DNA from: Streptomyces sp. 150FB
Lineage (GTDB): Bacteria; Actinomycetota; Actinomycetes; Streptomycetales; Streptomycetaceae
Length of the DNA stretch: 64,000 nucleotides
Assembly: GCF_000818195.1 (NCBI RefSeq)
Contig: NZ_JTHL01000001.1
Location: 3,904,174 to 3,968,173 of the forward strand
Direction: 5' to 3'
Shown: piece after piece, positions 35,598-51,677 of the stretch
Position numbering within the stretch: the first letter of the stretch is position 1
Layout: each line of letters begins with the position of its first letter
The notes under the pieces: generated by a model
The model's input: only the letters and a program-made list of their open reading frames with translations
Database searches by the model: none
Told to the model about the DNA's origin: nothing
Position numbers and translations under genes: made by a program

Positions 35598-36302
35598 ATG
35601 GATGCGATTGATGCTGCACGTGCCGTCGTAGAGGAACATCACTCTGACGCTCGGGCTGCGTTCTTGGGAGGCAGTGTCGTGACGGGCCGCCGCACGGCGA
35701 TGTCGGACCTCGACATCGTGGTGCTCCTCCGTGGATCCCCAGCCCCGTACCGGGCAAGCCTTCGGAGCGGTGAGTGGCCGGTGGAGATGTTCGTGCACAC
35801 CGAAGCGACGTGGCACGCGTACGTCCAACGGGAGGTACGTAAACGCCGGTCACCGCTGCTCTGGATGTGTGCCGACGGAATCCTGCTCTTCGACAACGAT
35901 GGAGTCGGGGCGCACCTCGCCGCTGAGGCACGGAAGTTGACCGCTACCGGACCACCGGCGGTGTCGGCCGAAGAGGTCGATGACCGCCGCTACGCGATCA
36001 CGGACCTCCTCGACGACCTCGCGGGGAGCGCGGACCAGAGCGAACGGTTGTTCATTGCCACCGAACTGGTCCGCCGAACGGGCGAGTTGGCGCTGACCGC
36101 TGGCGGATCCTGGAACGGGGGCGGGAAGTGGCTGGCCCGCCGTCTTGAGACCACATCCCCGGGGCTCAGCATGCACCTGCACGATGGCCTTGCTGAGGTC
36201 CTGGCGGGCCGGACGGAGCCCCTCGCGGCAGTGGTGGACGAGGTGCTGGGGCAGGTCGGCGGTCGTTTGTGGGTCGGCTACAAGCGCGGTGGAACTCCAT
36301 GA
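35598..36302 (+). CDS. Nucleotidyltransferase-domain protein
   Basis: A 234-residue protein. FLGGSVVTGRRTAMSDLDIVVLL is the pol-beta nucleotidyltransferase signature (GGS followed by the D-x-D metal pair). The remaining part is helical and resembles the C-terminal domain of small-molecule (aminoglycoside-type) nucleotidyltransferases. It may adenylylate a small molecule, for instance for self-protection. It converges with tyrS across a hairpin and begins the cargo block. Confidence 0.8.
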   Translation: MDAIDAARAVVEEHHSDARAAFLGGSVVTGRRTAMSDLDIVVLLRGSPAPYRASLRSGEWPVEMFVHTEATWHAYVQREVRKRRSPLLWMCADGILLFDNDGVGAHLAAEARKLTATGPPAVSAEEVDDRRYAITDLLDDLAGSADQSERLFIATELVRRTGELALTAGGSWNGGGKWLARRLETTSPGLSMHLHDGLAEVLAGRTEPLAAVVDEVLGQVGGRLWVGYKRGGTP

Positions 36303-36400
36303 ACGAGGTCGCCGCAGGGCGGCAGGCCCGCAATGGAGTGGTCGTGCATCGCACACGTACAGCTCTGCCACACGGCGTCACACGGAGGCTGAGCAAGACG

Positions 36401-36428
36401 GCGCCGACCCACCGATGTGGGCCGGCGC
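36401..36428. terminator. Bidirectional hairpin between the nucleotidyltransferase gene and tyrS
   Basis: 11-bp arms GCGCCGACCCA (36401-36411) and TGGGCCGGCGC (36418-36428) with one A-G mismatch and a 6-nt loop, between two convergent genes. Confidence 0.7.
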
Positions 36429-36440
36429 TGGTTCTCGATC

Positions 36441-37844
36441 TCAGGCGTCGATACGGGCCACCTTGCGACCCACCTTGAGGTACAACTCGACGCCGTCGCC
36501 TGCCCCGATCTCGCTCACCACTGCGCCGAGCGCCTGCTGGACGGAAGCCTCCGTGAGCTGAGTGGTCTGCTGCTCTCCGTCTGCCTCACGGATGAGACGC
36601 AGACCCTTCTGCTGAGCTACACGGCGCACGGCGGAGATGCTGGGCGCGAAGTCCAGCGTGCGGCTGATCAGGGCACCCAGAGTGTCCTCGCCGTGCTCCT
36701 TCATGGATACGACTGGGAGGTTCTGGGTGTCCCCGAAGGACCGCTTGGAGAAGCGAGCTGTGAACTCCGCGCGGGCGGCGGCTGCGACGTGCGGGCCGTG
36801 GAGAGCGGCCACCACCTCACCGGCGAGGATCCGCTTGACGGCCATCGGGTGCGCGGTCCCCGCCTCCAGACGCTTGGTCACCACGCGGATCTCGTCGTCC
36901 GTCCACTCGGTGAGGAGCTGCAGGTACGGCTCGGTCAGGTGGTCGGGGATCGACATCAGCCGACCGTAGACATCATCGGGCGTTGCCGTCAGACCGACGT
37001 AGTTGCCCTTGCTCTTGCTCATCTTGGAGCCCGTGCCGTCGGTCCCTTCGATCAGCGGAGTGGTGATGACGACCTCGGGCGTCTGCTCCGAGATCTCCAT
37101 GACCTTGCGGCACATCTGAAGGTTCAGCAGCTGGTCGACTCCGCCCAACTCGACGTCAGCTGTGATGGCCACCGAGTCCATCGCCATGACGACGGAGTAG
37201 ACGAACTCGGCGAGGGACAGACCCTGTCCCTCAGCGATCCGGGTACGGAAGTCCTCACGCTGGAGCGACATGGAGACGGGTACTCGGGCGAGGATTTCTA
37301 CGAGCTGCGGGAGGCTCACCTTGTTCAGCCACTCACCGTTGAAGCGCAGGTCGGCACGCTCGAAGTCGATGAACGGTGTGACCTGCTGCTGGTACGTGCT
37401 CAGGTTGCGGGCGATGTCCTCGTCGGTAAGAGTCGGCCGTTCGGAGGAGCGTCCCGAGGGGTCACCGATCTTCGCCGTCACGTCGCCGATGATGAAGACG
37501 ACGTGGTGGCCCATGCGCTGCAGCCGGCTGGCGATGATGATCGGCACCGCGTGGCCGAGGTGAACATCGGGTGAGGTCGGGTCGATGCCGTACTTGATGA
37601 CGAACTGGCGCCCCTCCGACCGCGCGGCCTCGATCTTCTCGGCGAGTACCCCGGCCGAGGGGATCAGGTTGATGGCGCGTCCCTCTACCAGCGCGGACTG
37701 CTCCTGAGGAGAGAGGTCGGAGAGATCCAGGGAGCGCCGGGCTGTTGTCTCGTCGAGCAGCTGCGAGACCGTATAGTCCGCGCCCAGGTCCGCTCCATCG
37801 AGGATGTGCATGACACTGGTGACGGACTCACTCAAACGGCTCAT
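36441..37844 (-). CDS. tyrS: Tyrosyl-tRNA synthetase (extra copy on the element)
   Basis: A complete 467-residue class I synthetase charging tRNA-Tyr. The HIGH-like motif is HLGH (residues 95-98), the tyrosine-site segment is GGVDQLLN, the KMSKS loop is KMSKSKGNY, and the C-terminus has an S4-like RNA-binding domain. It looks fully active. An N-terminal extension of about 60 residues precedes the usual start of such enzymes. The start is the ATG at 37844; the in-frame extension to 38150 is antisense to the NUDIX gene. Lying on a mobile element, it is probably a second copy: a target duplicate for resistance, or a supplier of Tyr-tRNA. Confidence 0.93.
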   Translation of the reverse strand: MSRLSESVTSVMHILDGADLGADYTVSQLLDETTARRSLDLSDLSPQEQSALVEGRAINLIPSAGVLAEKIEAARSEGRQFVIKYGIDPTSPDVHLGHAVPIIIASRLQRMGHHVVFIIGDVTAKIGDPSGRSSERPTLTDEDIARNLSTYQQQVTPFIDFERADLRFNGEWLNKVSLPQLVEILARVPVSMSLQREDFRTRIAEGQGLSLAEFVYSVVMAMDSVAITADVELGGVDQLLNLQMCRKVMEISEQTPEVVITTPLIEGTDGTGSKMSKSKGNYVGLTATPDDVYGRLMSIPDHLTEPYLQLLTEWTDDEIRVVTKRLEAGTAHPMAVKRILAGEVVAALHGPHVAAAARAEFTARFSKRSFGDTQNLPVVSMKEHGEDTLGALISRTLDFAPSISAVRRVAQQKGLRLIREADGEQQTTQLTEASVQQALGAVVSEIGAGDGVELYLKVGRKVARIDA

Positions 37845-37885
37845 GGCGCGTATACGACCAGCTTCCGGGCCCGCGCGCCAACCTT

Positions 37886-38296
37886 TTACAGCAGTGCTGC
37901 GTCGAGGTAAGCCTGTACGGGCTCGAACAGCCCATACGGTACGTACTGCACGATCTCGCCGTGGGCCACCCAAGCGAGCTCGGCCAGCTCCTCGGTGTCT
38001 GCGACGTAGGCGGTACCGCTCAGCACGTCGCAGGCTGTGTATGACATCAGCCGACCCGTCTTCGGGTGGACCCGCTCGCCGAGCAGCTTCGCTGCGGAGA
38101 CGGTCAGGCCCGTCTCCTCCCGGGTTTCGCGCACAGCGGCGCCCTCGCATGACTCGCCGGGCTCAACCTCGCCGGCAGGGAACTGCCAGGACAGCTGTCC
38201 CTCATTGACCCGACGGCGCACCATGAGGACCCGCCCCTCGTGGACGACGATCGCCGCGGCGATGCCTGGTCTCTGCCTCGCGTTCAGTTGCGTCAC
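37886..38296 (-). CDS. NUDIX hydrolase
   Basis: 136 residues from the GTG at 38296, chosen because GGAGGGAAG lies just upstream; an ATG 8 codons earlier lacks such a site. The box is FPAGEVEPGESCEGAAVRETREETGL, complete with REuxEE. The substrate is unknown; nucleotide sugars or 8-oxo nucleotides are common. It lies 41 bp upstream of tyrS on the same strand, so the two are probably co-transcribed. Confidence 0.9.
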   Translation of the reverse strand: MTQLNARQRPGIAAAIVVHEGRVLMVRRRVNEGQLSWQFPAGEVEPGESCEGAAVRETREETGLTVSAAKLLGERVHPKTGRLMSYTACDVLSGTAYVADTEELAELAWVAHGEIVQYVPYGLFEPVQAYLDAALL

Positions 38297-38353
38297 GTCT
38301 TCCCTCCAAGAGGGCCGCACGAAGCGAAAGATATGGCGGCCGCGGATCCAGAG

Positions 38354-39307
38354 TCAGTTCGGAGCAAGCAATTCCCGAACCTCCTCGGCGCACCCCCACG
38401 ACAGAGTGACACCGGCACCCCCGTGACCGTAGTTGTGCACGACCAGCGCACCGCCCTCCCCCCGCTCCGCCTCCACGCGGACCGTAGTACGGGTCGGCCT
38501 AGCGCCGATGCGGTGCTCCAGGACACGGGCGCGGGCGAGGCGGGGTTCGACCTTGGCGCATCGAGCCAGAATGCCGGCCGCCGCCCCGTCGTCTGGAGCG
38601 AGGCCGCCTTCGCCGTCGATGGCTGTGCCGCCCAGGACGACGGTCCCGCCGTGGGGATAGAAGCACAGCAGATCCGGTGAAGTACCGGTGTCCTCGGAGA
38701 AGAACTCGGTGAGCCCCGGGTTGGTGACGACTACGTGCTGGCCGCGAATCGGCCGAAGTTCTGGATCCAGGACCAGCTCGCGGGCTCCCAAGCCCGCGCA
38801 ATTGACGATCACAGGGACCGGACCGAGGTCCGCGAGCGAAGTCAGACGTCGCTGCTCGACCGTTGCGCCGGCCGTATGCAAACGGCGCAGGAGGTAGTCG
38901 AGATATGCGGGCATGTCCATCAGCGGCACTGTGAACCGGTACCCGGCGGTGAACCCGGTCGGAAGTTCGGTCGGCTCGCACGGCCGGAACCCCGGCAGGG
39001 TCGTAGCCCAGTCCGGTGGAGACTCGGCAGTACGCGATGCCTCAATGCCGCTGGTGAGCCGGACGCCTGTGGCCTGGTCCTCGGCCAGCTCCCGGAAGAC
39101 CTCCAGGGACCGCTGCCCCCACCGGTCGACCTTGTCCTTCGGCTCGACCAGGTACGGGCCCCACATCGCCCCAGCGGCCAGCGAGGTGGCACCGGGCGCC
39201 TGCTCGGCGACCACCTGTACCAATGCCCCGGCCTCGGCGAGAACGACGGCGGTGGTCAGTCCTGCCACCCCAGCCCCGACAACGACAACACACTCCCCTG
39301 CGTTCAT
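38354..39307 (-). CDS. FAD-dependent amine oxidase, D-amino-acid-oxidase-like
   Basis: A 318-residue protein. The N-terminal dinucleotide fold is VVVGAGVAGLTTAVVLAEAG, with a middle substrate domain (FRFTVP-like: YRFTVPLMDMPAYLDYL) and a C-terminal NYGHGGAGVTLSWGCA FAD-binding segment typical of DAO. It probably oxidises a D-amino acid or secondary amine to an imino acid with release of H2O2. It belongs to the minus-strand run regulator-oxidase-NUDIX-tyrS. The substrate within the cluster is unknown. Confidence 0.88.
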   Translation of the reverse strand: MNAGECVVVVGAGVAGLTTAVVLAEAGALVQVVAEQAPGATSLAAGAMWGPYLVEPKDKVDRWGQRSLEVFRELAEDQATGVRLTSGIEASRTAESPPDWATTLPGFRPCEPTELPTGFTAGYRFTVPLMDMPAYLDYLLRRLHTAGATVEQRRLTSLADLGPVPVIVNCAGLGARELVLDPELRPIRGQHVVVTNPGLTEFFSEDTGTSPDLLCFYPHGGTVVLGGTAIDGEGGLAPDDGAAAGILARCAKVEPRLARARVLEHRIGARPTRTTVRVEAERGEGGALVVHNYGHGGAGVTLSWGCAEEVRELLAPN

Positions 39308-39317
39308 GATCTCGACA

Positions 39318-40814
39318 TTAACGGCCGGGTGGCGTCGATGGAGCATGTCGGGCGAGGGCGTCTTCGAGGACCGGCAAGAAGCTGCGGACGTGCGGGTTGC
39401 GCTGGCGGCGGCGGAGGTCCGCGGCGAGCTGGTGCAGTAGGGCCGCGCTCCTCGGTGAACGCACAACGTCAAGGCGGTCAGCCGCGATCTGTCCGATCTC
39501 GCAGGCCGCCTCCAGGTCTCCGTGAGCGCTGTGCCCCAAGGCCAGCCATGCTCCCTCGAACATGGCCCTACGTTGGCTGGGATCGCCACGCGGAACGTCG
39601 TATGCCCCGGACAGGAGCATCTCGGTCCCCTGCGCGAGGAATCGTCGGGCCATCGTGCCGCCGTCGGCCTTCTGCCGCGCGCGCCCCATGTGAATGAAGC
39701 CGTAGCCGGCTTGGCAGTCCAGGTGGTTGCCGGTCAGGAAGTACATCCACCGGGGCTCCTCCTGGCTGCCGTCCCGACTTGCGATCAGTTCTCGGGCAGA
39801 GCCCCGGGTGTGTGCGAAGTCGTTGTCACGGCCGGCGGCGGCATACGCGTAGGCGAGCCGGGAAAGGACGGATGCCCGGGCGGCGGGCGGAGCGGCTTCG
39901 CTGGCGCGGCGGGCGGCCTCGCCCAGGGCGATTGCGTCCGCTGGGTGTCCTCGGCTCGCTGCCTGGAAGGAGAGGTCGCCGAGGATATGGGCGCACAGGG
40001 GAAGGTCGTTGGCCTGATGCGCGGCTCGCAGTGCCGTGGCGAAGTAGCGCTGCGCCAGGCCATGATCGGCGGCGTCGAAGGCCATCCAGCCGGCAAGCTG
40101 GCCGATCTCCGCGAGCGCGCGGATGAGTCTGCTCGTGACGACGGGCGAGTGACCGCCATCGTGAATGAGTAGTCCCACCGCGCGGAACTGAGCGCCTACG
40201 TAAGGGAGATGTCGCGCCCCGCCGTGCTCGTCGTCAAGCAACTGGAGCATGGGCAGGTGCTGCTCAACCTGGTCGACGAGTGGATCGGCGCCGTTCGACG
40301 GAGCTATCCGGGGCGCGTACTGGCCTCGCCCTGCCGTTCCGTCAAGGTACTGGGCGACGATCGCGAGGAGTCCCGCGCCTGAAATCGCGAGGAATCGGCG
40401 TCGGTCGACGAGCCCTCCCATCACCCAGTCCTCCACGATCGCCTCCATGCCCTGCACGGTCCAGGGCCGTGCGAGATCCGTGTCCGCCGGTACGAGCGCC
40501 GACGAGTCGCCCGCGCGGCCTTGCCACAGTTCGGCCACCGAGATGGCTCTGCCCAGCTCCTGGGAGAGCACGTAGGCAGCCATCATCGGCAACGGCGAAC
40601 GCGGAAGGGAACCGCCATCCCTCCAGTGGTACGGCGCCGACTCGGCTACGGTGCCCGCTCCGAACACCCGGTTGAGCTTGCGAGCCAGCGCCTTGGGGCT
40701 CCATCCGAGTTCGTCGAGGCACCCCGACAGCACGGCGTTCGGCCCCCCTGCCTGCTGTGCCACGTGCGACCACCTCACGTCCCAGCGGTTCGTCGACCAC
40801 TTCGCGCTCCCCAT
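39318..40814 (-). CDS. XRE-type regulator with TPR-like repeats
   Basis: A 498-residue protein with an N-terminal HTH-like segment (ELGWSPKALARKLNRVFGAG...). A short hydrophobic stretch, RRRFLAISGAGLLAIVAQYL, follows near residue 140, and Ala-rich helical repeats fill the rest. Such regulators are widespread in Streptomyces and often paired with an ATP-binding (anti-sigma-like) protein, as here with the divergent gene at 40966. It probably controls the cargo cluster; the signal is unknown. Confidence 0.8.
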   Translation of the reverse strand: MGSAKWSTNRWDVRWSHVAQQAGGPNAVLSGCLDELGWSPKALARKLNRVFGAGTVAESAPYHWRDGGSLPRSPLPMMAAYVLSQELGRAISVAELWQGRAGDSSALVPADTDLARPWTVQGMEAIVEDWVMGGLVDRRRFLAISGAGLLAIVAQYLDGTAGRGQYAPRIAPSNGADPLVDQVEQHLPMLQLLDDEHGGARHLPYVGAQFRAVGLLIHDGGHSPVVTSRLIRALAEIGQLAGWMAFDAADHGLAQRYFATALRAAHQANDLPLCAHILGDLSFQAASRGHPADAIALGEAARRASEAAPPAARASVLSRLAYAYAAAGRDNDFAHTRGSARELIASRDGSQEEPRWMYFLTGNHLDCQAGYGFIHMGRARQKADGGTMARRFLAQGTEMLLSGAYDVPRGDPSQRRAMFEGAWLALGHSAHGDLEAACEIGQIAADRLDVVRSPRSAALLHQLAADLRRRQRNPHVRSFLPVLEDALARHAPSTPPGR

Positions 40815-40855
40815 GGTGAGGCAGGCAGCTGCCGGATCTCCTGCCTATCAAGGAA

Positions 40856-40873: not shown

Positions 40874-40965
40874 CTGATCGGGTGCTGTACGACCGGTCTC
40901 CTCCGGTGTTCTTGAGTCACGGCGGAAGGCGCCGCCTTCGACGCCGGCGGAGAAAGAGGTGGGCC

Positions 40966-41493
40966 TTGAGAAACCACACGAGCACCTCCCGAGACCGTCC
41001 GGGCAGTGTGCTGGAGCGTGACTCCGGGAGACCGGTCTCCGCGCCATCGCTCGGGTACGCCGATGGCGGCGGTACGACCACGCTGATCACGGACCTGCCG
41101 TACGGGCCGAGGGCGGCCGCGGTCGCTCGGGAAGCCGTCGCTGTAGCGCTCCACGGCACCGAGGCGGACCTGCTCGACGACGCCCGACTGATCGGTTCGG
41201 AACTCGCAACGAATGCGTTCGCTTCGGGGAACCCGCCCCTGGTCCTGTGTGTGGACCGTAGGAACCCGGTCGTCGGTGGCCTGGAGGTCGAGATCACCGT
41301 GACCGACGGTGGCTGCCTTCGACCCCCACCTACCTCTCACCCGGCGCCCGAGGAGCAGGCCGAATCGGGGCGGGGCCTGGTCCTCGTCGAGGCACTGGCC
41401 GACGCCTGGTCCCTGACGACCGGCGCCGACGGCACCCGCGCCTGGTGCCGGCTGACGCGCACGTCCAGCTCTTCGCCTGCGAGAACGCTCTGA
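40966..41493 (+). CDS. ATP-binding protein of the anti-sigma-factor kinase type
   Basis: About 175 residues from a TTG at 40966 behind GAGGTG; an in-frame GTG at 40882 would add an Arg-rich leader. The GHKL ATPase motifs are DDARLIGSELATNAFASG (N box), VTDGG (G1) and SGRGLVLVEALADAW (G2). Such RsbW/SpoIIAB-like proteins bind or phosphorylate regulators. It diverges from the XRE/TPR regulator and precedes the biosynthetic operon by 45 bp. Confidence 0.8.
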   Translation: MRNHTSTSRDRPGSVLERDSGRPVSAPSLGYADGGGTTTLITDLPYGPRAAAVAREAVAVALHGTEADLLDDARLIGSELATNAFASGNPPLVLCVDRRNPVVGGLEVEITVTDGGCLRPPPTSHPAPEEQAESGRGLVLVEALADAWSLTTGADGTRAWCRLTRTSSSSPARTL

Positions 41494-41537
41494 TACCCGC
41501 GCCCGCAAGATCCTGTCTTCGAAGGAGGCACCACACG

Positions 41538-42848
41538 GTGCGCATCGACCATGCGGCCCCGCCGTCCCCGTTCACCGACGCGGCCAGGGCCATCCGCCAT
41601 CCTCGCGTAGTTGTCGCCCTTCACGAAGGCCTCTACGGCGCCGAGTCGGGCACCGGCTTCAGTAACCGTGCCTTCCTCACGGCACTCGCCCGCCTCCTGC
41701 CGACGGGCCGCCTCTCCGTGGTCTCCCCACCCGTCTCTGAAACAGCGGTCGCGCACGATCGGCGGTGGAGCTGCGAGGTCCAGCTGATGCTGGAGGAGGC
41801 GGAGGCCGAGGTGATCACGATTCCCGAGGTCCAGATGCCCCCGGGGTCGGTCCGCGGCTCCACCCACCTGTGCGGCCTGGCGGGGAAGGCTGCCGCACGC
41901 GTCGCCGATCGCACGAGCCGCTGCCTGCTCGTCGGCCTCGACGTTCCCTTCCTCGGCCTCGCGGCTTACACGCCACCGACCACAGACCTGCTGCTCGTCC
42001 CCCGCTCTGCAGCGGCCCTGACGCGGCCTGGAGACCTGTCCCGAATCCGCTGGGAACGTGAGGGCCTGCGGGCGGCGACCGCCCAGGGCGGTCGTATCGG
42101 GGCCATCTCCACCCACATGCGAGACCACCTCGTCACGAACTGTTCCATCCCGCGGGCGGGCATCGTGAACATCCCGAACGGGCTGATCCGAGAGGAGATG
42201 GCCAGGCCAACGCATGTTCGGCCCCTGCCCTTCAAGGCTCGAGCCGGCTTCGTGCTTGCGATGGGGCGCGCTGTGCCCATCAAGGGGTTCGAAGACCTCC
42301 TGAAGGCGCTGCACGTTCTGAAGGGCCGAGGAGTCCGTCTGCCGCACCTGCTCCTGGCCGCCGTCACGTCGGATGATCACGAGCACCTGACCTCGTACCA
42401 GAGGCACCTGGCGGCAGGTATCCGCGCCTACGACTTGTCCGCGACGCTGATCCCCCGCTTCACCCCCTCCATCCGCTCCTGGCTGCACAGTCCCGCGCTG
42501 CGCGCGGTCGTCGTTCCCTCGCGCGAGGAACCCTTCGGACGGATACCTCTGGAGGCGTTCGCGGCGGGAGCGGGGCCGGTCGTCGCGACCAGCGCCGGCG
42601 GACTGGCCCAGACCGTCATCGAAGGCGAGACCGGATTCACCGCCGCACCCGGGGACTCCCAGTCTCTGGCCTCCGCCCTGCGCCGAGCCCTGACCACCCT
42701 GCCCCGAGAACGCGAACGGCTCCGGAACGCCGGTGCGGCTCTAGTGCGTTCACGCCACGACTACGAGGCCAGCATCGGCTCCGCCATCGGCAGCATCGCC
42801 CCATGGGCTCTGGCTCCGTCGCCCACAGGGGAAAGCAGGGGCCGATGA
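41538..42848 (+). CDS. GT-B glycosyltransferase (family 4-like)
   Basis: 436 residues from the GTG at 41538, which follows GGAGG. The C-terminal Rossmann half carries SREEPFGRIPLEAFAAG (E-x7-E) and GGLAQTVIEGETGF, the donor-binding signature of retaining GT4 enzymes. It transfers a sugar from a nucleotide donor to an unknown acceptor. It is the first gene of a tightly packed operon and overlaps the next gene by 4 nt (ATGA). Confidence 0.85.
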   Translation: MRIDHAAPPSPFTDAARAIRHPRVVVALHEGLYGAESGTGFSNRAFLTALARLLPTGRLSVVSPPVSETAVAHDRRWSCEVQLMLEEAEAEVITIPEVQMPPGSVRGSTHLCGLAGKAAARVADRTSRCLLVGLDVPFLGLAAYTPPTTDLLLVPRSAAALTRPGDLSRIRWEREGLRAATAQGGRIGAISTHMRDHLVTNCSIPRAGIVNIPNGLIREEMARPTHVRPLPFKARAGFVLAMGRAVPIKGFEDLLKALHVLKGRGVRLPHLLLAAVTSDDHEHLTSYQRHLAAGIRAYDLSATLIPRFTPSIRSWLHSPALRAVVVPSREEPFGRIPLEAFAAGAGPVVATSAGGLAQTVIEGETGFTAAPGDSQSLASALRRALTTLPRERERLRNAGAALVRSRHDYEASIGSAIGSIAPWALAPSPTGESRGR

Positions 42849-43843
42849 GCTGGCCGGTGGTGCTCATCAGCCTGGAATCCCCGCACTCCTTCTGGCGGTT
42901 GTCCGCCGAGCACGAGCGTTTCCTACGTGCTTCTTTCCCGGGTGTGGATTTCCGTACGGCCGCCGAGGAGGACGTGCCGTACCGGCTGGCGGAAGTCAGC
43001 ATCTACTTCGGCTGGCGGTTCGAACCATCGTGGCTGGTCGGCGCGCCGCATCTGAACTGGATCGCATCCCCGGCCGCCGGTACCGACCATCTGCCCGTTG
43101 CCGAGGCGCACTCCGCCGGGGTGGCCCTGACCCGCTCGTACGGGTTTCACGGCCGCCCCATGGCCGAGCACGCCATGGGGCTGGTCCTGGGCTTCTCTCG
43201 CGGGTTGTTCACGAGCCAGCGCGTCCAGCGGAACCGGACCTGGTGGAAGGACGACCTCGCCGAGGAGTTCTTCGACCTGGCCGGGTCGACGATGACCATC
43301 GTCGGCTGCGGCAGCATCGGTGGCCATCTGGCCCGTACCGCGCGCGCCTTCGGTACGGACGTGATCGGAGTACGACGGACACCGCCTGTGGCGGCGGGGG
43401 ACGGGATCACCTGGATGCACGCCTCGGCGGTGCACCAGGCCGTCGCCATCGCCGACGTGGTGGTCGACCTGCTGCCGGCCACCCGGGCCACGAACCATCT
43501 CTTCGACCACGGCCTCTTCGCGGCCTGTAAGCCGGGAGCCGTCTTCCTCAATCTCGGCCGTGCGACAACCGTCGACCAGTCGGCCCTCCTGGCCGCCCTC
43601 AATACCGGCCACCTGCGGGGCGCCGCGCTGGACGTATCCGACCCGAGGCCCCTGCCCGCTCGCCATCCGCTGCGGCTCCACCCCCGGGTCGTGCTCACGC
43701 CGAAGAGTTCGACGCTCTGCCACACGTACATGGACGGGGCGGTCGCGTTCTTCGCCGAGAACCTGCGCCGATTCCTTGCTGGCCAGCCGCTCAACGGCCT
43801 GGCCGAAGTACCCGACGCCCATTCCCCCCTCGCAGGAGGCTGA
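42845..43843 (+). CDS. D-2-hydroxyacid-dehydrogenase-like protein with altered active site
   Basis: A 332-residue NAD-dependent D-isomer 2-hydroxyacid dehydrogenase fold. The NAD motif is VGCGSIGGHLAR and the conserved Arg is in NLGRATTVD. At the usual catalytic Glu position it has Asp (DVSDPRP). Where the catalytic His lies in the TPH motif it has Lys (LTPKSST). The chemistry may therefore differ or be lost. The start is the ATG overlapping the glycosyltransferase stop; an in-frame ATG at 42803 lies inside that gene. The radical SAM gene follows after 3 nt. Confidence 0.82.
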   Translation: MSWPVVLISLESPHSFWRLSAEHERFLRASFPGVDFRTAAEEDVPYRLAEVSIYFGWRFEPSWLVGAPHLNWIASPAAGTDHLPVAEAHSAGVALTRSYGFHGRPMAEHAMGLVLGFSRGLFTSQRVQRNRTWWKDDLAEEFFDLAGSTMTIVGCGSIGGHLARTARAFGTDVIGVRRTPPVAAGDGITWMHASAVHQAVAIADVVVDLLPATRATNHLFDHGLFAACKPGAVFLNLGRATTVDQSALLAALNTGHLRGAALDVSDPRPLPARHPLRLHPRVVLTPKSSTLCHTYMDGAVAFFAENLRRFLAGQPLNGLAEVPDAHSPLAGG

Positions 43844-43846
43844 CCC

Positions 43847-44959
43847 ATGCCCACCACCCGCCACCGTGACCTGATCGCAGCCTTCGCGGCTACCGGCCGC
43901 AACCACCCCTACCTGGCCTTCACCCTGAACTCGTTGTGCAACCTGGACTGCGTGTTCTGCAAGCCCCGCTGCATGCCGGACTACGGGCACAAAGACCGCC
44001 CCCTGACCACCGCCGACTACGCGGCCATCGCCGCCGAGGCCGGGATTTGGAAGATCCGGAAGGCGCACTGCTCCGGCGGCGAACCGACCCTGCGGGCGGA
44101 CATCCTCGACGTGATCGAGGGCCTCGCCGACGGCCTCGGGTCCGACGCCGCGATCGGCATGACGAGCCACGGCAACCTACGCCGCGGGCTGAGCGTGGAG
44201 AAGCTGCACCGCGCCGGACTGACGTACCTCAACCTCAGCCTACACAGCCTCGACCCGACGCGATCCGCCACCATCATGGGCGGCGGCGACCCGCGCACGA
44301 CTCTGCGCACCCTCGATGACGCCCTCTCCCTCGGCCTGCGAGTGAAGATCAACTGCGTCCTCCAGCGCACCTACCTGGACGACGCCTTCGCCGTGGCCGA
44401 GCTGGCCCGCGACCTGCCTATCGCCGTCCGCCTCATCGAACTCCAGAACATCGGGCCCGCACAGGCGCTGTTCGACACCGAGTTCATCAACGAGGCGGAC
44501 GTCCGCAATCGTCTCCACGAATGGTTCGCGGGTGCGGGGGAGGTCTCTCGTGAACAGCTCGGGGTCCGTAGCCCCGGGCGGTATCTCCGTCCCGACGGCT
44601 GGGCGGGCTCAATCGGCTTCATCTCCAACTCCAGCTGTGCCACATGCTCCGACGCCAACCGCATCAAGATCACACCCACTGGGGTGGCCCGCCCCTGCAT
44701 CCTCCACAACCGTGACATCCCCCTGAAGCCCCACCTCGCCGACAGCACCCTCGGCGATGCCTTCGCCCACCTCTTCCAGGCCATGCTCGACCGCAACACG
44801 AACGACGCCTGGCAGGGCTTCCATTACGTCGACTACGACCTTCGCTGGGACCGGATGGAGCGTCCCGAGGGCACCCCGGTCCTGCTGCCTCTGCTCCCCG
44901 TCCTCCCCTCGGACGCGGCTCAGCCCTCGTGCACCCGAGCCTCCACCGGAGAGCGGTGA
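43847..44959 (+). CDS. Radical SAM protein, MoaA-like
   Basis: A 370-residue radical SAM enzyme. The [4Fe-4S]/SAM motif is CNLDCVFC (C-x3-C-x2-C) with SGGEPTLR as the GGE site. The C-terminal half has a second cluster motif, C-x2-C-x16-C (CATCSDANRIKITPTGVARPC), like MoaA but three residues longer; MoaA's terminal GG is absent. MoaA acts on GTP in molybdopterin synthesis. This protein probably performs a related radical rearrangement on a nucleotide or other cluster intermediate. It overlaps the next gene (TGATG). Confidence 0.88.
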   Translation: MPTTRHRDLIAAFAATGRNHPYLAFTLNSLCNLDCVFCKPRCMPDYGHKDRPLTTADYAAIAAEAGIWKIRKAHCSGGEPTLRADILDVIEGLADGLGSDAAIGMTSHGNLRRGLSVEKLHRAGLTYLNLSLHSLDPTRSATIMGGGDPRTTLRTLDDALSLGLRVKINCVLQRTYLDDAFAVAELARDLPIAVRLIELQNIGPAQALFDTEFINEADVRNRLHEWFAGAGEVSREQLGVRSPGRYLRPDGWAGSIGFISNSSCATCSDANRIKITPTGVARPCILHNRDIPLKPHLADSTLGDAFAHLFQAMLDRNTNDAWQGFHYVDYDLRWDRMERPEGTPVLLPLLPVLPSDAAQPSCTRASTGER

Positions 44960-46077
44960 TGGTCGCGGCCGAAGCGCCGCCGCTGTACCCGGGTCTCGGA
45001 ACGCTGTACGAAGGCGAGTTGGACGCCTACGGGGTCGGGGCCATGATGCTCACCCACAAGTGGCAGCCGGCCGATTTACTGGCTCCCCACTCCGACATCG
45101 ACGTGCGCGTCCTCCTGCCCGAGGCACCCGCGAACTGGGAGGAGTGGAATCACCGTCTGGCCGCCGCGCATAAGTCCGCGGTCCGCCGGGAGGTCTCCCA
45201 CAGGCGGCTTCTGGAGCATCCGCCCGGATTCGCGTTCACCGTGACCGAGGCGGACGGACGGTTCGTCTCCGCACCCGAGCTCGCGACCTGGTCGCTGATC
45301 AGCGGGAGCGCCCGGGACTTCCAACGCTGGAAGTCCCAGGCCCAGATGGCGCCCTGGTGCGAGGTCGACGAACGCTTCTACCGGGGAATCCTCCAGGCAC
45401 GGGTCGGAGGCCGGTACCAGTTGGCGGCGGACAGTACCGACAACGTGGTCGAGGACATCACCGCGTACCGGCGTCACTGCGTGGCCTGGCACTACCTCGC
45501 CCCCTGCTGGTTCGCCGCCGCCGCACTCGCGACACGGACCCGCTGCCCCGGCAAGACGGCCGCGCTCACCCAGTGGCGCCCGGACGGGCTGGACGCGTAC
45601 GCCGAGCTGTTCCTCCGACACTCCGAAGGCGGACCCGACAGGCGACGTCGTAGCCCGCGCCACCTGCTCCGCGCGGCACACGTCTCCCTGGAAACGGCCA
45701 TGCGCCGCATTCCTCAGGCAAGCCGCCCTCCCGACAAGGGCAAGGAGTCCGCTGCCACCGACTGGGTAATGACCGCCGGAATGCTTCGCGTACGTGTCGC
45801 CCGCTGGCTGTACTACCTCGATCCGCCGCCCGGTGTCGCGACCGAGTACCTGATCCAGCGGGAGGCGAAGGAACTCCGTTCCGCCGCGCAGACCCTGAAC
45901 GCGCTCGCGGAGGACGGGGTCACTCCCGCCCAACGCCTGGCCGCCCGAATGGCCGGGCTGATCCCCACCGGACCGACGACTCCCGACACCCTGCGCACCA
46001 CCCTCGCGCTCTGGCACCGGCAGAGGTCCACGGTGCAGGACTTCCTCAGCCTCCCGCCCGGTGCCATCCACCCCTGA
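44959..46077 (+). CDS. Unknown protein, possibly nucleotidyltransferase fold
   Basis: About 372 residues from the ATG at 44959, which overlaps the radical SAM stop. The N-terminal LLAPHSDIDVRVLL resembles the D-x-D strand of pol-beta-type nucleotidyltransferases, though the usual GS loop is not obvious. The rest is helical with several Trp-rich segments. It contains a TTA leucine codon (45076-45078), usually a mark of bldA control. I do not recognise the family. Its place between two radical SAM genes implies a role in the same pathway. Confidence 0.7.
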   Translation: MVAAEAPPLYPGLGTLYEGELDAYGVGAMMLTHKWQPADLLAPHSDIDVRVLLPEAPANWEEWNHRLAAAHKSAVRREVSHRRLLEHPPGFAFTVTEADGRFVSAPELATWSLISGSARDFQRWKSQAQMAPWCEVDERFYRGILQARVGGRYQLAADSTDNVVEDITAYRRHCVAWHYLAPCWFAAAALATRTRCPGKTAALTQWRPDGLDAYAELFLRHSEGGPDRRRRSPRHLLRAAHVSLETAMRRIPQASRPPDKGKESAATDWVMTAGMLRVRVARWLYYLDPPPGVATEYLIQREAKELRSAAQTLNALAEDGVTPAQRLAARMAGLIPTGPTTPDTLRTTLALWHRQRSTVQDFLSLPPGAIHP

Positions 46078-46093
46078 CACAAGGAGCCTCGCC

Positions 46094-46891
46094 ATGCCCG
46101 CGCGTGCGTCCCAGCCCCGCACCCTGAAAACGGCGAAGATCAAGATCACGACGAAGTGCAACCGGTCCTGCGACTTCTGCATCTTCGCCGACGGCGCCCA
46201 GGGCGAGAACATGGCCCCAGACCTGTTCTCCACCATCCTGACCCGGCTGGAGACCATCCCTTTCCAGCAGTTGCACATCAACGGCGGCGAACCCACCGTG
46301 CACCGGGACTTCCCCGCTCTCAGCGAAGCCGCCCGGACACGCCTGCCGGACAAGGTCATGGTTCTGGGCACGAACGCCATCACGCTGGCCCGCAACCAGC
46401 GGATCATGGAAGCCACGCTCCGCTCGTACGACCAGATCCTCATCGGCTGCGACGACGAGCACGAGAACTACGCCGAAGTACACGCCGCCGTGCCCCGTCT
46501 CCGCGAAGCCGGCAAGACCGTGGTCGTCAACAGCGTGCTGGAAGGCATCAGTTCCTCCCGGCTCGTGGAGCTCGCGAGGCTGTGCGACACGTACGGCGCG
46601 ATCCACGTCACCAACCACGTGCACCACGTCGATGTCGGCCAGCCGTCGAACAAGCTGCGCGGCATCTGCGACCGCTACCTCGACCAGCACCTGATGATCG
46701 AGATGGACGGGTCCTGCTACCGCTGCTTCAACGCCATGGCGAAGGACGACAGCGAGTTCAGCATCTGGGACGAGGACTTCGGGGCCAAGGTGTTCGCCCC
46801 CCGCGGCCATCACTTCCGGTTCTGCCTGCGCTGCCACGAGTACACGGACTCAGGCGCCGCTCTCCTGCCTGCCCGCATTCCGACCGCATGA
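46094..46891 (+). CDS. Second radical SAM protein
   Basis: 265 residues from the ATG at 46094 behind AAGGAG. The SAM motif is CNRSCDFC (C-x3-C-x2-C), with INGGEPTVH as the GGE site. The C-terminus has additional cysteines, GSCYRCFNAMAK and FCLRCHE, which could bind an auxiliary cluster, as in SPASM-type enzymes. It is shorter than the first radical SAM protein and only distantly similar. The substrate is unknown. No precursor peptide gene was found nearby, so a RiPP pathway is not supported. Confidence 0.85.
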   Translation: MPARASQPRTLKTAKIKITTKCNRSCDFCIFADGAQGENMAPDLFSTILTRLETIPFQQLHINGGEPTVHRDFPALSEAARTRLPDKVMVLGTNAITLARNQRIMEATLRSYDQILIGCDDEHENYAEVHAAVPRLREAGKTVVVNSVLEGISSSRLVELARLCDTYGAIHVTNHVHHVDVGQPSNKLRGICDRYLDQHLMIEMDGSCYRCFNAMAKDDSEFSIWDEDFGAKVFAPRGHHFRFCLRCHEYTDSGAALLPARIPTA

Positions 46892-46914
46892 CTCCAGACC
46901 GGAGGTACACGACC

Positions 46915-48639
46915 ATGCCCGCAGTCCTCGGGCTGAACTTCCACCACGACACCGCCGCCGCCTTGATCGTCGACGGCCGCCTCTACGCGGCAGAAGAGGA
47001 ACGCTGGAGCGGCGTCAAGCACAACCACCCCACCCGCAAGGGCACGCTCGCCGCGCCGGTCCGTGCCCTTCAGTGGTGTCTGGAGGCCGCCGGCATCGAA
47101 CCGCAAGACGTCGACGCCGTCTGGGCCGCCTCCATGCGTCCCAATCCTGCCGCCGGCTGGTGGCTCACCGAGGAGCGGGACGAACTCGCCGCTCTCTTAC
47201 CTGCCCCGCTCGGTGGCCATCTCCGCCTCCTCTCCCACCACACCGCCCATGTGCTCTCCGGGTACCTGCTCTCCGGACACGACCACGCGGCGGGCCTCGT
47301 CATTGACGCCGGCGGCTCCTCCCTCGGCTCCGACTTCGGTCCGGGGCGGGAACGCATCACCGGCTACGACCTGCGGCCGGATCGCATCGACCGCGTCCAC
47401 CAGAGCATGCCGACGGTGGTCCCAGGCCCTGTCGGCCCTCGGCGCGTCCACTCCTCCCTCGGGCACTTCTACCGAAACCTGGCCCGCAGAGTGATCCCGC
47501 CGGGCGACGAACCCGAGGGCAGCATGATGGCGCTTGCCGCGTTCGGCGACCCCCAGCGTTACAGTTCGCAGATCCGCGAGCTCGTACTCCTCGGCGACGA
47601 CGGCGAGGTCAGCATCGGCCACCCCTGGGGCTCGGCGGATAACAGCACACCGCTGCTACTCCGTGGCCGCGTCTGGACCGCTGACAACGTCGTGGAGCAA
47701 ACCGACTCGGAACGGGCCGACCTGGCCGCCACAGTCCAGGAGGTCTTCTCCGAGTCGGTCATCCACATCGCACGCCATCTGCAACGGCTCACAAGAGCCT
47801 CGGCGCTGGTGTTCTCGGGTGGGTGCGCCCTGAACTCCCACCTCAACGGCCGACTGGCCGACGACAGCGGCTTCGACACCCTCTTCGTGGCGCCGGCACC
47901 ACACGACGCGGGCACCGCTGTGGGCGCCGCCTTGTACGCCTGGCACTACCAGCTCGGGCAGGAACGTCTCCAGGTGCCGACCGACGCGGCCTGGGGCCCT
48001 AACCCGGGCACTCTGAAAGCGGGTGCGATGCCATCCGGGTACCGCGCTCTGACCGGCCTGGGGGCGGACCTGGCACCGGCGGCGGCAGCGCTGCTCGCTC
48101 AGCACCGCATTGTCGGCTGGGTACAGGGACCGCTCGAATTCGGGCCCCGGGCCCTCGGGCACCGCTCGATCCTCGCCCACCCGGGCCACGCCGCCACGCG
48201 GGACCGACTCAACGCGATCAAGCAACGAGCTGCGTACCGCCCGTTCGCCCCGGCCGTCCTCGCCGAGCACGCCACGGAGTGGTTCATGTCGGCGGGCGAC
48301 CCCTTCATGAACCGCGTCGCCCACGTCCGCCGGTGCCGAGCCGACCGCATAGCCGCGGTCACCCACCACGACGGCACCGCGCGCGTCCAATCCGTGGCCC
48401 CAGACCATCAGGGCCTGCACGAGCTCCTGCAGCGGTTCCACGAGCACACCGGCCTGCCGCTGCTGTTGAACACCTCCTTCAACCTCAAAGGCACGCCGAT
48501 CCTGCGATCCGCCGAGCAGGCCGTACAGGCGGCAGCCGGCCTCGGACTCGACGCCCTCGCCGTCGGAGACACCCTTCTGATCGCCGACCACGTCCCCGAC
48601 CCCCGGGCTCTACCCCAGCCATCCTTACGAGAGGGGTGA
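46915..48639 (+). CDS. Carbamoyltransferase (NodU/CmcH/TobZ family)
   Basis: A 574-residue protein. The N-terminal Kae1-like domain has LNFHHDTAAALIVDG and the HHTAH metal motif. FSGGCALNSHLNG is an ATP-binding segment, and the C-terminal domain has GPLEFGPRALGHRSILA. These enzymes place a carbamoyl group on a sugar or other hydroxyl, using carbamoyl phosphate and ATP. The start is the ATG at 46915 behind GGAGG; an ATG at 46888 overlapping the upstream stop is possible. It contains two TTA codons (47197 and 48625), suggesting bldA dependence. Confidence 0.92.
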   Translation: MPAVLGLNFHHDTAAALIVDGRLYAAEEERWSGVKHNHPTRKGTLAAPVRALQWCLEAAGIEPQDVDAVWAASMRPNPAAGWWLTEERDELAALLPAPLGGHLRLLSHHTAHVLSGYLLSGHDHAAGLVIDAGGSSLGSDFGPGRERITGYDLRPDRIDRVHQSMPTVVPGPVGPRRVHSSLGHFYRNLARRVIPPGDEPEGSMMALAAFGDPQRYSSQIRELVLLGDDGEVSIGHPWGSADNSTPLLLRGRVWTADNVVEQTDSERADLAATVQEVFSESVIHIARHLQRLTRASALVFSGGCALNSHLNGRLADDSGFDTLFVAPAPHDAGTAVGAALYAWHYQLGQERLQVPTDAAWGPNPGTLKAGAMPSGYRALTGLGADLAPAAAALLAQHRIVGWVQGPLEFGPRALGHRSILAHPGHAATRDRLNAIKQRAAYRPFAPAVLAEHATEWFMSAGDPFMNRVAHVRRCRADRIAAVTHHDGTARVQSVAPDHQGLHELLQRFHEHTGLPLLLNTSFNLKGTPILRSAEQAVQAAAGLGLDALAVGDTLLIADHVPDPRALPQPSLREG

Positions 48640-48644
48640 CGGAA

Positions 48645-49259
48645 ATGGCCGTTGTCAATCTGCCTCACATCCTGACCACACTCGCCACCAGCACATGGGC
48701 CGTCGGGGACCGTTCCCGCGCCCGTGTGGCTGCCGGTCTGGCCCTCGCGATCTACGCCGGGCATACCCGAGATCAGGGCACCCCGTACGTCCAGCATCCG
48801 CTCGCCGTCGTCACGGTTCTGCGGTCCGAGCTCGGCGTTACACATCCCGAAACCCTCCTCCTCGGCCTTTTGCACGACGCACTGGAGGTCGATCCGGGCT
48901 CAGAGGCTCTCGTCACCCACCAGCTGGGGGCAGCCTTCGCTGAACGCCTACGCGCGATGACGCCCGACCATCGGCTCGAACGCCGGCCCAAGGTCCCGGG
49001 CGACGAGACCCGATGGCGCGTGAAGACAGCGGCCCTCCCCGCAGAGGAGCTCCTGATACGGCTGGCCGACCGCATCCACAACCTGCGCGACCTGGCCGCC
49101 TCGCCGAACCAAGAACGCCGGCGGAAGTTCGTACGGAACCTCACAGACTTCCACCTCCCCCTGGCCGCCGCCGCACGCCGCCTCAGCCCTCACCTGGAAG
49201 CCGCACACACGCTGCTCAACGCCGAGTACATCCACCGCCAACAGGAGATACGCCCGTGA
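48645..49259 (+). CDS. HD-domain protein resembling small alarmone hydrolases
   Basis: A 204-residue protein. AIYAGHTRDQGTPYVQHPL, LLGLLHDALEVDP and RLADRIHNLRDLA follow the pattern of the (p)ppGpp hydrolase domain of SpoT/Rel and MESH1. The usual Glu-Asp after HD is replaced by Glu-Val, so activity is uncertain. No synthetase domain is present. It may remove a phosphate from an alarmone-like or pathway nucleotide. The start is the ATG at 48645 after GACGGAA. It overlaps the next gene (GTGA). Confidence 0.8.
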   Translation: MAVVNLPHILTTLATSTWAVGDRSRARVAAGLALAIYAGHTRDQGTPYVQHPLAVVTVLRSELGVTHPETLLLGLLHDALEVDPGSEALVTHQLGAAFAERLRAMTPDHRLERRPKVPGDETRWRVKTAALPAEELLIRLADRIHNLRDLAASPNQERRRKFVRNLTDFHLPLAAAARRLSPHLEAAHTLLNAEYIHRQQEIRP

Positions 49260-50245
49260 GACGGATCGTGTACTCGATGGAGCCGGTCGGTCGGACTGGC
49301 GGCCGGGTCTACCTCCGGATGCTTCACGAGGCGACCGCCGACGATGTCGAGTGGCGCACGGTTCCGGACCACAAGCGCACCTACCACGTCCGCCGCTGGC
49401 GGAAGCTCCGCCACCTCGCCCGACTGGCCCCGACCGTCCGGGCGCTGAGTTCCGCCGCCACCGGCACCTTCGTGTGGGACGACCTCAGCCTGCTGCTCTT
49501 CACACAGGAGATGCGGGCCCGCACGGTGTTCCTCCTGCACCACTACGAGCCGTTGCAGCACGACTCCACTCCCGTGGAGGCCATGCTCTGGGAGCGGCTG
49601 TTCCGGGTGCTGCCGCAGTGTGCGGCCGTGGTGTGCGTATCCCCGTACTGGGCTGACTTCCTCCGGTCCCGCGGTGTCCACAACGTTCGGGTGATCTACA
49701 ACGCCTTCGACATGACCGAGATCGAACGGGCACGCGCCCTTGACCGGGCTGAGTGCCGCGCCGAATTCGACCTGGCCGCAGACACGATCGGCGTGTACGC
49801 GGGCAAGGCCGTTCACTGGAAGGGCACCGCGGAGGTCGCCGCGGCCCTGGCCGGCGCACCCGGGCTTCAAGTGATCACCAGCGGCAGCAACACCATCGGC
49901 TTCGGCGGTGCGCACTACGACGTGGAGCGCGAGCGATACCTGCGGCTGCTGCGGGCATGCGACGTCGGCGTCTTCCTGCCCCGGATGCGGGAGGGCTGGA
50001 GCCGCTGCGCAGCCGAGGCACTGCTGCTCGGGCTGCCCTGCCTGATCCGACCGGTCGCGGGCCTCGGCGATCTCGCGGCCCTGACCGGCCAGCCGGCGCC
50101 AGACCTCGACCGTCTGTCGGCGCAGGTCCGGGAACACGCTACGGCGCGCCGAACCGAAGCCAAGGCCGCGTACGAGGCCCTGGCCCAGTTCGACCTGCAC
50201 TACTTCGGAAACGCCTGGGGCGACCTTCTCGCGCAGGTCTCCTGA
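49256..50245 (+). CDS. Second GT-B glycosyltransferase
   Basis: 330 residues from the GTG at 49256, overlapping the HD gene stop. The fold is GT-B: SPYWADFLRSRGV, the nucleotide-sugar half GVYAGKAVHWKG, and REGWSRCAAEALLLGLPCL with the donor-binding Glu. It probably adds a second sugar to the product. It is the last gene of the operon and converges with gltX with only 10 bp between stops. Confidence 0.85.
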   Translation: MRRIVYSMEPVGRTGGRVYLRMLHEATADDVEWRTVPDHKRTYHVRRWRKLRHLARLAPTVRALSSAATGTFVWDDLSLLLFTQEMRARTVFLLHHYEPLQHDSTPVEAMLWERLFRVLPQCAAVVCVSPYWADFLRSRGVHNVRVIYNAFDMTEIERARALDRAECRAEFDLAADTIGVYAGKAVHWKGTAEVAAALAGAPGLQVITSGSNTIGFGGAHYDVERERYLRLLRACDVGVFLPRMREGWSRCAAEALLLGLPCLIRPVAGLGDLAALTGQPAPDLDRLSAQVREHATARRTEAKAAYEALAQFDLHYFGNAWGDLLAQVS

Positions 50246-50255
50246 CCGGGGACGC

Positions 50256-51677
50256 CTATACCTGCGCGGCCAGCTTCTCGGCCGCGGCGTCCAGACGGGC
50301 CAGGACGCGGTCCCGGCCAAGCAGTTCCATGGACTCGAACAGCGGGAGCCCGATCGTTCGGCCGGTGACCGCGACCCGGATGGGCGCCTGGGCCTTGCCC
50401 AGCTTCAGCCCGTGCTTCTCTCCCACGGCGAGCGTGACGGCCTTCAGGCCGTCCGTTTCCCAGTCCGAGACGGTGGCGAACTCGGCGCGGACATCGGCCA
50501 GGATGCCATCGGCACCCGCCTTCATCGCCTTGTTCCACGACGCCTCGTCCTCGACAGGCGAGTCGAGGAACAGGAAGTCCACGTTGTTGGTGATCTCGGA
50601 CAGCAACGCCAGCCGGGTCTGGGCCAGCGGTGCCACCGTCTCGAAGACGGCCTGGTCGAACGCCTCCGGCTGCCACGGCGCGTACGGGGCGACGAGCCAC
50701 GGCCCGCAGGCAGCTGCGAACTGCGCGGGCGCCAGGGCACGGATGTAGTCCCCGTTGAACGCCGTCAGCTTCTTCACGTCGAAGAACGCCGGGGCGGTGT
50801 TGACGTCCTCGATTCGGAAGAGCCGCTCCAGCTCCTCGTACGGCATGAGCTCCCGGTCACCGCCGGGGCCCCAGCCGAGGAGCATCAGGTAGTTCACCAT
50901 CGCCTCGGGAAGGAAGCCGTCGGCGAGGTAGTCCTCCAGCGCGACCTTGTCGCGACGCTTGGACAGCTTCTGCCGCTTCTCGTTCACAATCACCGGCAGG
51001 TGCGCCCACACCGGCGGCTGGGCACCGAGCGCCTCCCACAGCAGCTGCTGCTTCGGCGTGTTCGAGAGGTGCTCCTCGCCGCGGATGACCTGGGTAATGC
51101 CCTCGTCCAGGTCATCGACCACGTTCGCGATCAGGAAGACGGGGGACCCGTCACCGCGGGCGATCACGAAGTCCTCGATCGCGCTGTTCGGGAACGCCGG
51201 CTCCCCGCGGATGAGGTCGACCACGACGGTCTCGCCCTCGTCCGGTGTCTGGAACCGCAGTGCCCGGCCCTCCTCGAAGGCCAGCCCGCGGGCCCGACAG
51301 AACCCGTCGTACCCGAGGTGCTCCGACCCGGTACGCTCCTTCAGCTGCTCCCGGGTGCAGTCGCAGTAATACGCCTTGCCCGCCGAGTACAGCTGCTGGG
51401 CGGCCTCGCTGTGCCGGGCCGCGTTGTGCGACTGGAAGTACGGCCCCTCAAAGGCCGCGTCCTCGCCATGGATACCGATCGCCGCGAGAGCGCTGACGAT
51501 GCCGTCGATCCACTCCTGCTTGTTCCGGGCCGCGTCGGTGTCCTCGATCCGCAGGACGAACGTGCCGCCGGACTGTCGTGCCACGGCCCAGTTGTAGAGA
51601 GCGGACCGTGCGCCACCAACATGGAACATGCCGGTCGGAGACGGGGCGAAACGAACGCGAACCGGGGCAGTAGACAT
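50256..51677 (-). CDS. gltX: Glutamyl-tRNA synthetase (extra copy on the element)
   Basis: A full-length 473-residue class I synthetase. The HIGH region is [16 protein letters not shown], and the KMSKS-like loop is [18 protein letters not shown] contributes to the Cys zinc-like region (CDCTREQ...). It should attach glutamate to tRNA-Glu. The start is the ATG at 51677; a GTG 9 codons earlier is possible. It bounds the cargo block on the right, mirroring tyrS on the left. On a mobile element it is likely a second copy, perhaps a resistant target or a source of Glu-tRNA. Confidence 0.93.

Follow-up and report, generated by a model that had tools for sequence, protein, structure and literature searches.

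The presence of a second glutamyl-tRNA synthetase (GluRS) gene and a second tyrosyl-tRNA synthetase (TyrRS) gene on either side of an apparently biosynthetic operon in Streptomyces sp. 150FB raises the question of what these extra synthetases are for. The operon lies in a stretch of 64,000 nucleotides (the window, C1:3904174-3968173 of a genome of 9,802,157 bases), and a first-pass annotation of it had proposed that the extra synthetases reflect either self-resistance or the use of aminoacyl-tRNA as a substrate. Distribution and sequence uphold the self-resistance part of this proposal for GluRS and not for TyrRS. The reading that we consider probable, with real room for doubt, is that the operon is a horizontally moving pathway for a metabolite that would poison GluRS, and that the second GluRS gene, gltX-2, would encode the producer's insensitive enzyme (GluRS-2). 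Gene content, co-inheritance, the second gene copy, clade-specific changes, copies persisting without the operon and a mobile context are observed directly; the chemistry, the target and the resistance we infer.

The window gltX is an extra copy, since GluRS matches occur in the genome at position 6994242 (466.8 bits) as well as in the window (420 bits); the two proteins are 54% identical. The operon is densely packed on the + strand (41538-50245) in the order gt1, dh, rs1, X, rs2, carb, hd, gt2 (Table 1), and gltX-2 is convergent with it on the opposite strand. A single scan of 84,980 species genomes for X, a member of an unnamed family, returned 42 loci, 41 of which (L006-L046) share the gene order; because the pattern scan recovers only relatives sharing a query peptide, 41 loci is a lower bound. 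The gene set is found in other genomes, with 39 of the loci in Streptomyces, one in Planomonospora and one in Nonomuraea; S. varsoviensis, S. capoamus and S. zinciresistens are among the carriers. The remaining locus, L047 from S. chryseus, has decayed: its cluster lies in broken pieces, nsdA fragments adjoin rs1 fragments (L047:8479-10176), and the fetched DNA contains no gltX.

Among the 41 loci, dh, rs1, X, rs2, carb, hd and the extra gltX are each present in all, so that no homologous unit was found without this synthetase. Both gt1 and gt2 are present in 40, being missing from the Planomonospora locus (L034), and dao and the nsdA-family gene, which are divergent from the operon, are present in 35, with one of the six misses (L013) at a contig edge. 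By best hit, gltX lies within 86 bp of gt2 in 37 of the 40 gt2-bearing loci. Two exceptions are technical (an assembly gap in L015 and broken frames in L035), and in the third, L027, a 4.6-kb insert with a transposase like those of insertion sequences separates gt2 from gltX-2 (15300-19800), which is kept. The distances of gltX-2 correlate with those of all ten other genes tested (r 0.93-0.97; L015 and L035 omitted).

The association extends to genome-wide counts. Of 295 genomes sampled from the genus, 14 have X (two borderline matches, E 4e-4 and 9e-4, were dropped) and 19 have a GluRS of the GluRS-2 clade (at least 69% identity), among them all 14 with X; each of the 19 carriers has at least two GluRS matches. 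A family-wide search of 297 genomes found rs1 in five, three of them under new handles and one of these three from another genus; all three new loci have gltX and show no tyrS match in the fetched 16 kb. A phylum-wide sample of 296 genomes yielded only the strain's own genome and G067 at E 1e-40. Because these genome collections overlap (L015 is G006; also L020/L135), counts from different collections are not independent. A search for plasmid copies of rs1 returned 160 records, all below 60% identity; of the ten listed, nine are annotated as moaA and one is unannotated.

GluRS-2 is also distinctive in its active-site region. Comparison of 46 GluRS-2 sequences (the window, 40 loci and five copies that stand without the operon) with 49 other GluRS, requiring 95% agreement inside the group and 85% among the others, revealed nine clade-specific substitutions (E73D, R85N, Y89H, E111Q, Y181F, M192E, D202E, F224W and G232N) and one inserted Leu. 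Five of the substitutions (R85N, Y181F, D202E, F224W and G232N) are invariant in 46 of 46 sequences. The catalytic motifs are kept, with KLSKR in all 46 rows and HVGG in 44, the misses being L027, cut at the locus edge, and the error-rich L035 (the many frame breaks of L035 are most simply sequencing errors, and it was omitted from the residue counts of the operon proteins but is one of the 46 GluRS-2 rows). The housekeeping GluRS of the five X carriers examined out of 14 (L004, L115, L116, L125 and L126) retains the ordinary residues. Y181 probably matches the tyrosine that contacts the substrate glutamate in Thermus GluRS, and position 232 would lie just ahead of the KMSKS-like loop; nothing on the placement of these two residues was found in the open-access papers searched.

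Five carriers of GluRS-2 (G010, G181, G288, G168 and G025) lack X, and the rest of the operon is also missing within the 20 kb fetched. These solo copies are open frames, and their pairwise dN/dS (the ratio of nonsynonymous to synonymous substitution rates) against cluster gltX-2 is 0.07-0.25 (six pairs), similar to the 0.12-0.24 of three cluster-cluster pairs. Their scanned neighbours are mixed (folate genes, a major facilitator superfamily gene, NAD synthase and regulators) with no common pathway. Beside two of them a C-terminal stub of gt2 survives, of 56 residues in G010 (L064) and of 23 residues in G025 (L068; E 0.003, in the expected place and strand). In a tree of 69 sequences (20 of the 46 GluRS-2 rows and all 49 others), the GluRS-2 rows fall on one side of a branch (100/100) beside ordinary GluRS of the same class, with a stem of 0.87. 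The solo copies fall at more than one place within the clade: L066 pairs with L037 (100/100), L064 with L030 (100/100) and L067 with L043 (92/86), L065 and L068 being placed less surely. This topology fits repeated loss of the operon with GluRS-2 kept, the alternative being a separate gain of the gene.

Several points weigh against a resistance role for GluRS-2. The clade-specific substitutions may reflect old divergence (stem 0.87) instead of resistance; Phe at 181 is also found in one of the 49 other GluRS (L112), and the Xanthomonas GluRS 5h4v has Asp where GluRS-2 has Asn232. No operon remnant was found near solo gltX-2 in three of the five genomes within the 20 kb fetched, and the solo gene may have been acquired by itself or have some other use. 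Pairwise dN/dS of solo against cluster gltX-2 is averaged over both branches and therefore does not isolate the solo branch. Duplication of GluRS also occurs without the operon, as G100, G191 and G196 each have two GluRS matches outside the GluRS-2 clade (G135 and G276 have none at E 1e-60). In L015/G006 an assembly gap interrupts gltX, the break being a run of N and not a demonstrated frameshift. No transporter family matched among the cluster genes, and product, target and resistance are all predicted from genes and their distribution.

The enzymes of the operon deviate from their textbook relatives. All 41 dh rows retain the catalytic Arg and have Lys at the His site; Glu is replaced by Lys in 32 rows and by Arg in nine. 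With Arg, Glu and His presumed to be the catalytic residues of D-2-hydroxyacid dehydrogenases, replacement of the latter two makes the ordinary 2-hydroxyacid dehydrogenase reaction unlikely. The rs1 protein shares with MoaA (GTP 3',8-cyclase) the radical SAM core and three C-terminal Cys, which together with CX3CX2C make six Cys kept in 41 of 41 rows, but it scores 167.8 bits against TIGR02666 (MoaA), below the cut-off of 284.05, and has changed motif residues. The first MoaA Arg site is Ala in 40 and Thr in one of 41 rows, the later Arg pair is one Arg and one Lys in all 41, and the C-terminal Gly-Gly is missing, the window protein ending in TGER; by eye, three residues are also inserted behind the second C-terminal Cys in comparison with 1tv7. 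We assume these Arg residues to be those that bind GTP in MoaA, and the Gly-Gly likewise to be functional there. For rs2, PADLOC viperin models matched only over the N-terminal half, and the predicted structure is poor (predicted local distance difference test score, pLDDT, 61). In carb both domains, Carbam_trans_N and Carbam_trans_C, are above cut-off, as in the O-carbamoyltransferases GdmN, TobZ and NovN; its nearest solved relatives are the GdmN, novobiocin and TobZ carbamoyltransferases.

The predicted structure of X (pLDDT 81) has a weakly nucleotidyltransferase-like fold over about residues 8-256 and a helical C-terminal part. It aligns with AadA over 212 residues (VIA Z 10.3, root-mean-square deviation 4.4), whereas the best Foldseek match has an E of only 0.11, with none at 0.001. 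The DxD pair (D47 and D49, in an SDxD motif) is invariant in an alignment of the window and 25 of the 42 loci (A1; L034 and L045 were dropped because the matched stretch overran the stop, at residue 362 of 369 and 358 of 364; a further alignment, A2, holds the window and 21 of 38 usable loci). What we take to be the nucleotidyltransferase motif is GS...DxD, and X has T/A/I-H in place of GS. X shares the SDxD motif with the AadA/ANT adenylyltransferases, differs from them in the GS motif, and is only weakly assigned to an ANT/AadA-like nucleotidyltransferase fold. Together the deviations of dh, rs1 and X suggest substrates outside textbook pathways, with the chemistry unproven. The pairing of a radical SAM enzyme with an HD protein in one operon presumably parallels that of oxetanocin-type pathways, whose HD phosphohydrolase we believe to come from a different HD family.

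In the proposed pathway both radical SAM enzymes, together with the rewired dehydrogenase, would build a scaffold, the HD protein would remove phosphate, decoration of the scaffold would fall to the carbamoyltransferase and both GT4 enzymes, and X would transfer a nucleotidyl group or perform a related step. The product might block the housekeeping GluRS at its glutamate/glutamyl-adenylate site, or might itself be loaded onto tRNA instead of glutamate; GluRS-2, whose active-site region is altered, would maintain the charging of tRNA-Glu (and, for the amidotransferase route, of tRNA-Gln). From the genes, the product is probably antibiotic-like, carbamoylated and glycosylated; the two decorations were a guess in the first-pass annotation and are a guess still, and L034 lacks both glycosyltransferases. 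A bolder version, which we hold to be doubtful, is that this would be the first natural-product pathway aimed at GluRS, making a glutamyl-adenylate mimic whose glutamate-like part is produced by radical SAM chemistry and whose nucleotide is added by X, with GluRS-2 persisting alone among competitors as an environmental resistance gene. A reading of the operon as one for a ribosomally synthesised and post-translationally modified peptide, a lanthipeptide or a product of a non-ribosomal peptide synthetase (NRPS) or polyketide synthase (PKS) was rejected, as no such Pfam domain was found in the scanned genes (small open reading frames were not systematically searched).

The other half of the original proposal, that GluRS-2 supplies Glu-tRNA as the substrate of an aminoacyl-tRNA-dependent transfer step, appears unlikely. 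It would account for the inheritance of gltX-2 with the operon as tightly as that of the biosynthetic genes, and X has a helical C-terminal part with no assignment; co-expression of GluRS with lanthipeptide enzymes is known (PMC10727000). However, no FemX-, GNAT-, LanB- or cyclodipeptide-synthase-like match was found in Pfam or NCBIfam among the scanned cluster genes (transporter, NRPS and PKS families were likewise without a Pfam match there), and a gltX-2 kept without X, as in five of the 19 carriers, would be useless for this purpose. It is because no tRNA-dependent transferase family matched and because solo GluRS-2 persists that this option is the less likely of the two originally proposed.

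Somewhat less plausible again is a role of the operon in making an intracellular cofactor or in modifying tRNA or nucleotides, with GluRS-2 forming part of an altered translation state. The lack of a transporter family match and the proximity of a nucleotidyltransferase-like X, an HD protein and a synthetase are consistent with such a role. The patchy presence of the operon (14 of 295 genomes), its link to mobile genes, the retention of GluRS-2 without it and the nearest solved relatives of carb, all from the carbamoyltransferases named above, argue against it. That both synthetases are accidental island passengers, uninformative about the product, is very improbable, since it suits tyrS and is already contradicted for gltX, which was found at every one of the 41 loci and in all 14 X-bearing genomes.

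The TyrRS gene, which the first-pass annotation had made a boundary of the block, was rejected as a member of the unit. It is indeed an extra copy, with two TyrRS family matches above cut-off, one at G000:C1:1814879 (375.5 bits) and one in the window (268.9 bits), that share 29% identity over the aligned part. No complete tyrS was found in the fetched DNA of the 41 homologous loci, of which L013 is too short there and L019 and L025 are partly covered, and the related genes of the genus show no linkage to the operon: a similar TyrRS (E 1e-60) occurs in 54 of 295 genomes, comprising two of the 14 X-bearing genomes (the strain's own, and G022 on another contig) and 52 of the 281 others. Remnants of 39-48 C-terminal residues adjoin dao in the nearest relatives, L006, L007 and L008, so tyrS probably stood at this place in their common ancestor and later decayed. 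The refuting condition set at first pass, homologous operons that lack the flanking synthetases, thus holds for TyrRS and not for GluRS. TyrRS-2 therefore looks like an unrelated passenger. Its own role is perhaps that of another resistance allele.

Table 1. Features of the gltX-2 locus and of the island that carries it (positions in the window).
Feature	Position	Strand	Evidence and occurrence
gt1, GT4 glycosyltransferase	41538..42848	+	PF00534 7.3e-18; in 40/41 loci
dh, D-2-hydroxyacid-dehydrogenase-like	42845..43843	+	PF02826 2e-43
rs1, MoaA-like radical SAM enzyme	43847..44959	+	PF04055 7.4e-17, PF06463 1.8e-14; MoaA 1tv7 7e-22
X, unnamed family, 373 aa	44956..46077	+	no Pfam/NCBIfam match
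rs2, radical SAM enzyme, Cys-rich C-terminus	46061..46891; start may be 46094	+	PF04055 1.8e-9; invariant Cys
carb, NodU/TobZ/GdmN-type O-carbamoyltransferase	46888..48639	+	PF16861 1.2e-58, PF02543 1.5e-24; GdmN 7.5e-68
hd, HD_4 phosphohydrolase-like	48636..49259	+	PF13328 2.1e-14; RelA/SpoT and Mesh1 matches
gt2, GT4-type glycosyltransferase	49256..50245	+	PF13439 1.4e-9
gltX-2, second glutamyl-tRNA synthetase, proposed self-resistance enzyme	50256..51677	-	TIGR00464 420 bits
dao, D-amino-acid/D-aspartate-oxidase-like flavoprotein, usual companion	38354..39307	-	PF01266 5.9e-38; 6rkf 2.5e-43; 35/41 loci
nsdA-family regulator, usual companion	39318..40814	-	NF053720 6.5e-69, 233.5 bits (cut-off 75); 35/41 loci
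HATPase_c_2 (anti-sigma-like) regulator, before gt1	40882..41493; start uncertain	+	PF13581 3.7e-11
tyrS-2, second tyrosyl-tRNA synthetase, passenger outside the unit	36441..37844	-	TyrRS family 268.9 bits
NTP_transf_2 nucleotidyltransferase, frequent neighbour	35598..36302	+	PF01909 21.2 bits (cut-off 21); 11/41 loci
NUDIX hydrolase	37886..38224	-	PF00293 6e-17; same place in L009, L027, L028, L029
att repeat, 3' end of tRNA-Pro(CGG)	23416..23460	+	45-bp exact direct repeat; tRNA call
att repeat, far end of 40-kb island	63379..63423	+	45-bp exact direct repeat
Tyrosine integrase	26256..28112	-	PF14659, PF00589 (below cut-off), PF00356
MobA/VirD2-type relaxase	31863..33602	+	PF03432 26.2 bits (cut-off 24.6)
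Weakly NikA-like gene, beside relaxase	31042-31866		PF21983 below cut-off

The placement of the genes between tyrS and gltX and the tight coupling of the operon, both described at first pass, are borne out: there are overlaps of 4 bases at gt1/dh, rs1/X, rs2/carb, carb/hd and hd/gt2, a gap of 3 bases separates dh from rs1, and X and rs2 overlap or are 16 bases apart according to the rs2 start chosen. The genes listed in that inventory stand, X, the NUDIX gene and the NTP_transf_2 gene having been omitted from it. Its amine oxidase is a flavoprotein oxidase, more specifically one resembling D-amino-acid and D-aspartate oxidases; its alarmone-hydrolase-like protein is the HD_4 protein, whose nearest solved structures are RelA/SpoT and Mesh1; and its regulator pair consists of the NsdA-family and HATPase_c_2 proteins. 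A riboswitch or T-box ahead of the synthetases was also considered and rejected, an Rfam gathering scan of 35000-53500 giving no matches.

The cluster sits on a 40-kb element integrated at tRNA-Pro (23416-63423); the 22-base core of its terminal repeat occurs only twice in the genome, with 0.00 occurrences expected by chance. Relatives of the relaxase (tblastn E 1e-10, 37-76% identity) are found in the fetched DNA of 13 of the 41 loci, and an integrase 86-88% identical to that of the window in four further loci (L037, L040, L041 and L046), so the cluster often travels with this kind of element. The integrase has a LacI-type helix-turn-helix match between its N-terminal and catalytic matches. 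The island also holds a defence-like block (52177-62659) with a DruM/DruM2-like cytosine methylase, SspF-like, SspG-like and Vsr proteins and a 1678-aa FtsK/HerA-like protein; the first two genes of this block recur near gltX-2 in L007, L009, L019 and L030 (86-98% identity). Just beyond the right repeat, at 63699-64000, is the start of another cytosine-methyltransferase-looking gene, perhaps of a second element.

Antibiotic clusters with a second, insensitive synthetase are known for albomycin (SerRS), mupirocin (IleRS) and indolmycin (TrpRS) (PMC9437257). The present locus is like these in having a divergent second synthetase beside a biosynthetic operon and a housekeeping copy elsewhere, and unlike them in that the synthetase is a GluRS, the other enzymes differ and resistance is only predicted. 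The excerpted passages of two reviews (PMC7916415, PMC9437257) name no GluRS antibiotic-resistance copy or natural GluRS antibiotic, and the only GluRS inhibitors that they name are synthetic peptide-sulfamoyl-adenylates. PMC6273380 lists another cryptic cluster of Streptomyces that has a glutamyl-tRNA synthetase at one of its edges, and PMC13372681 uses gltX as a toeprinting template, which is unrelated. No report of this cluster was found among the listings of the open-access literature searched. Biosynthetic clusters with an insensitive synthetase are thus a known kind of locus; a GluRS in this role and the set of enzymes appear new, as far as the literature searched shows.

In Streptomyces a single GluRS is expected to charge tRNA-Glu as well as tRNA-Gln, which would make this target especially vulnerable. 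Should GluRS-2 prove to be a resistance enzyme, it would name the target of the metabolite ahead of the product itself, and the operon, carried by 14 of the 295 genomes sampled from the genus, would be a ready lead for genome mining. The solo gltX-2 copies would then be a natural example of a resistance gene that outlives its biosynthetic cluster.

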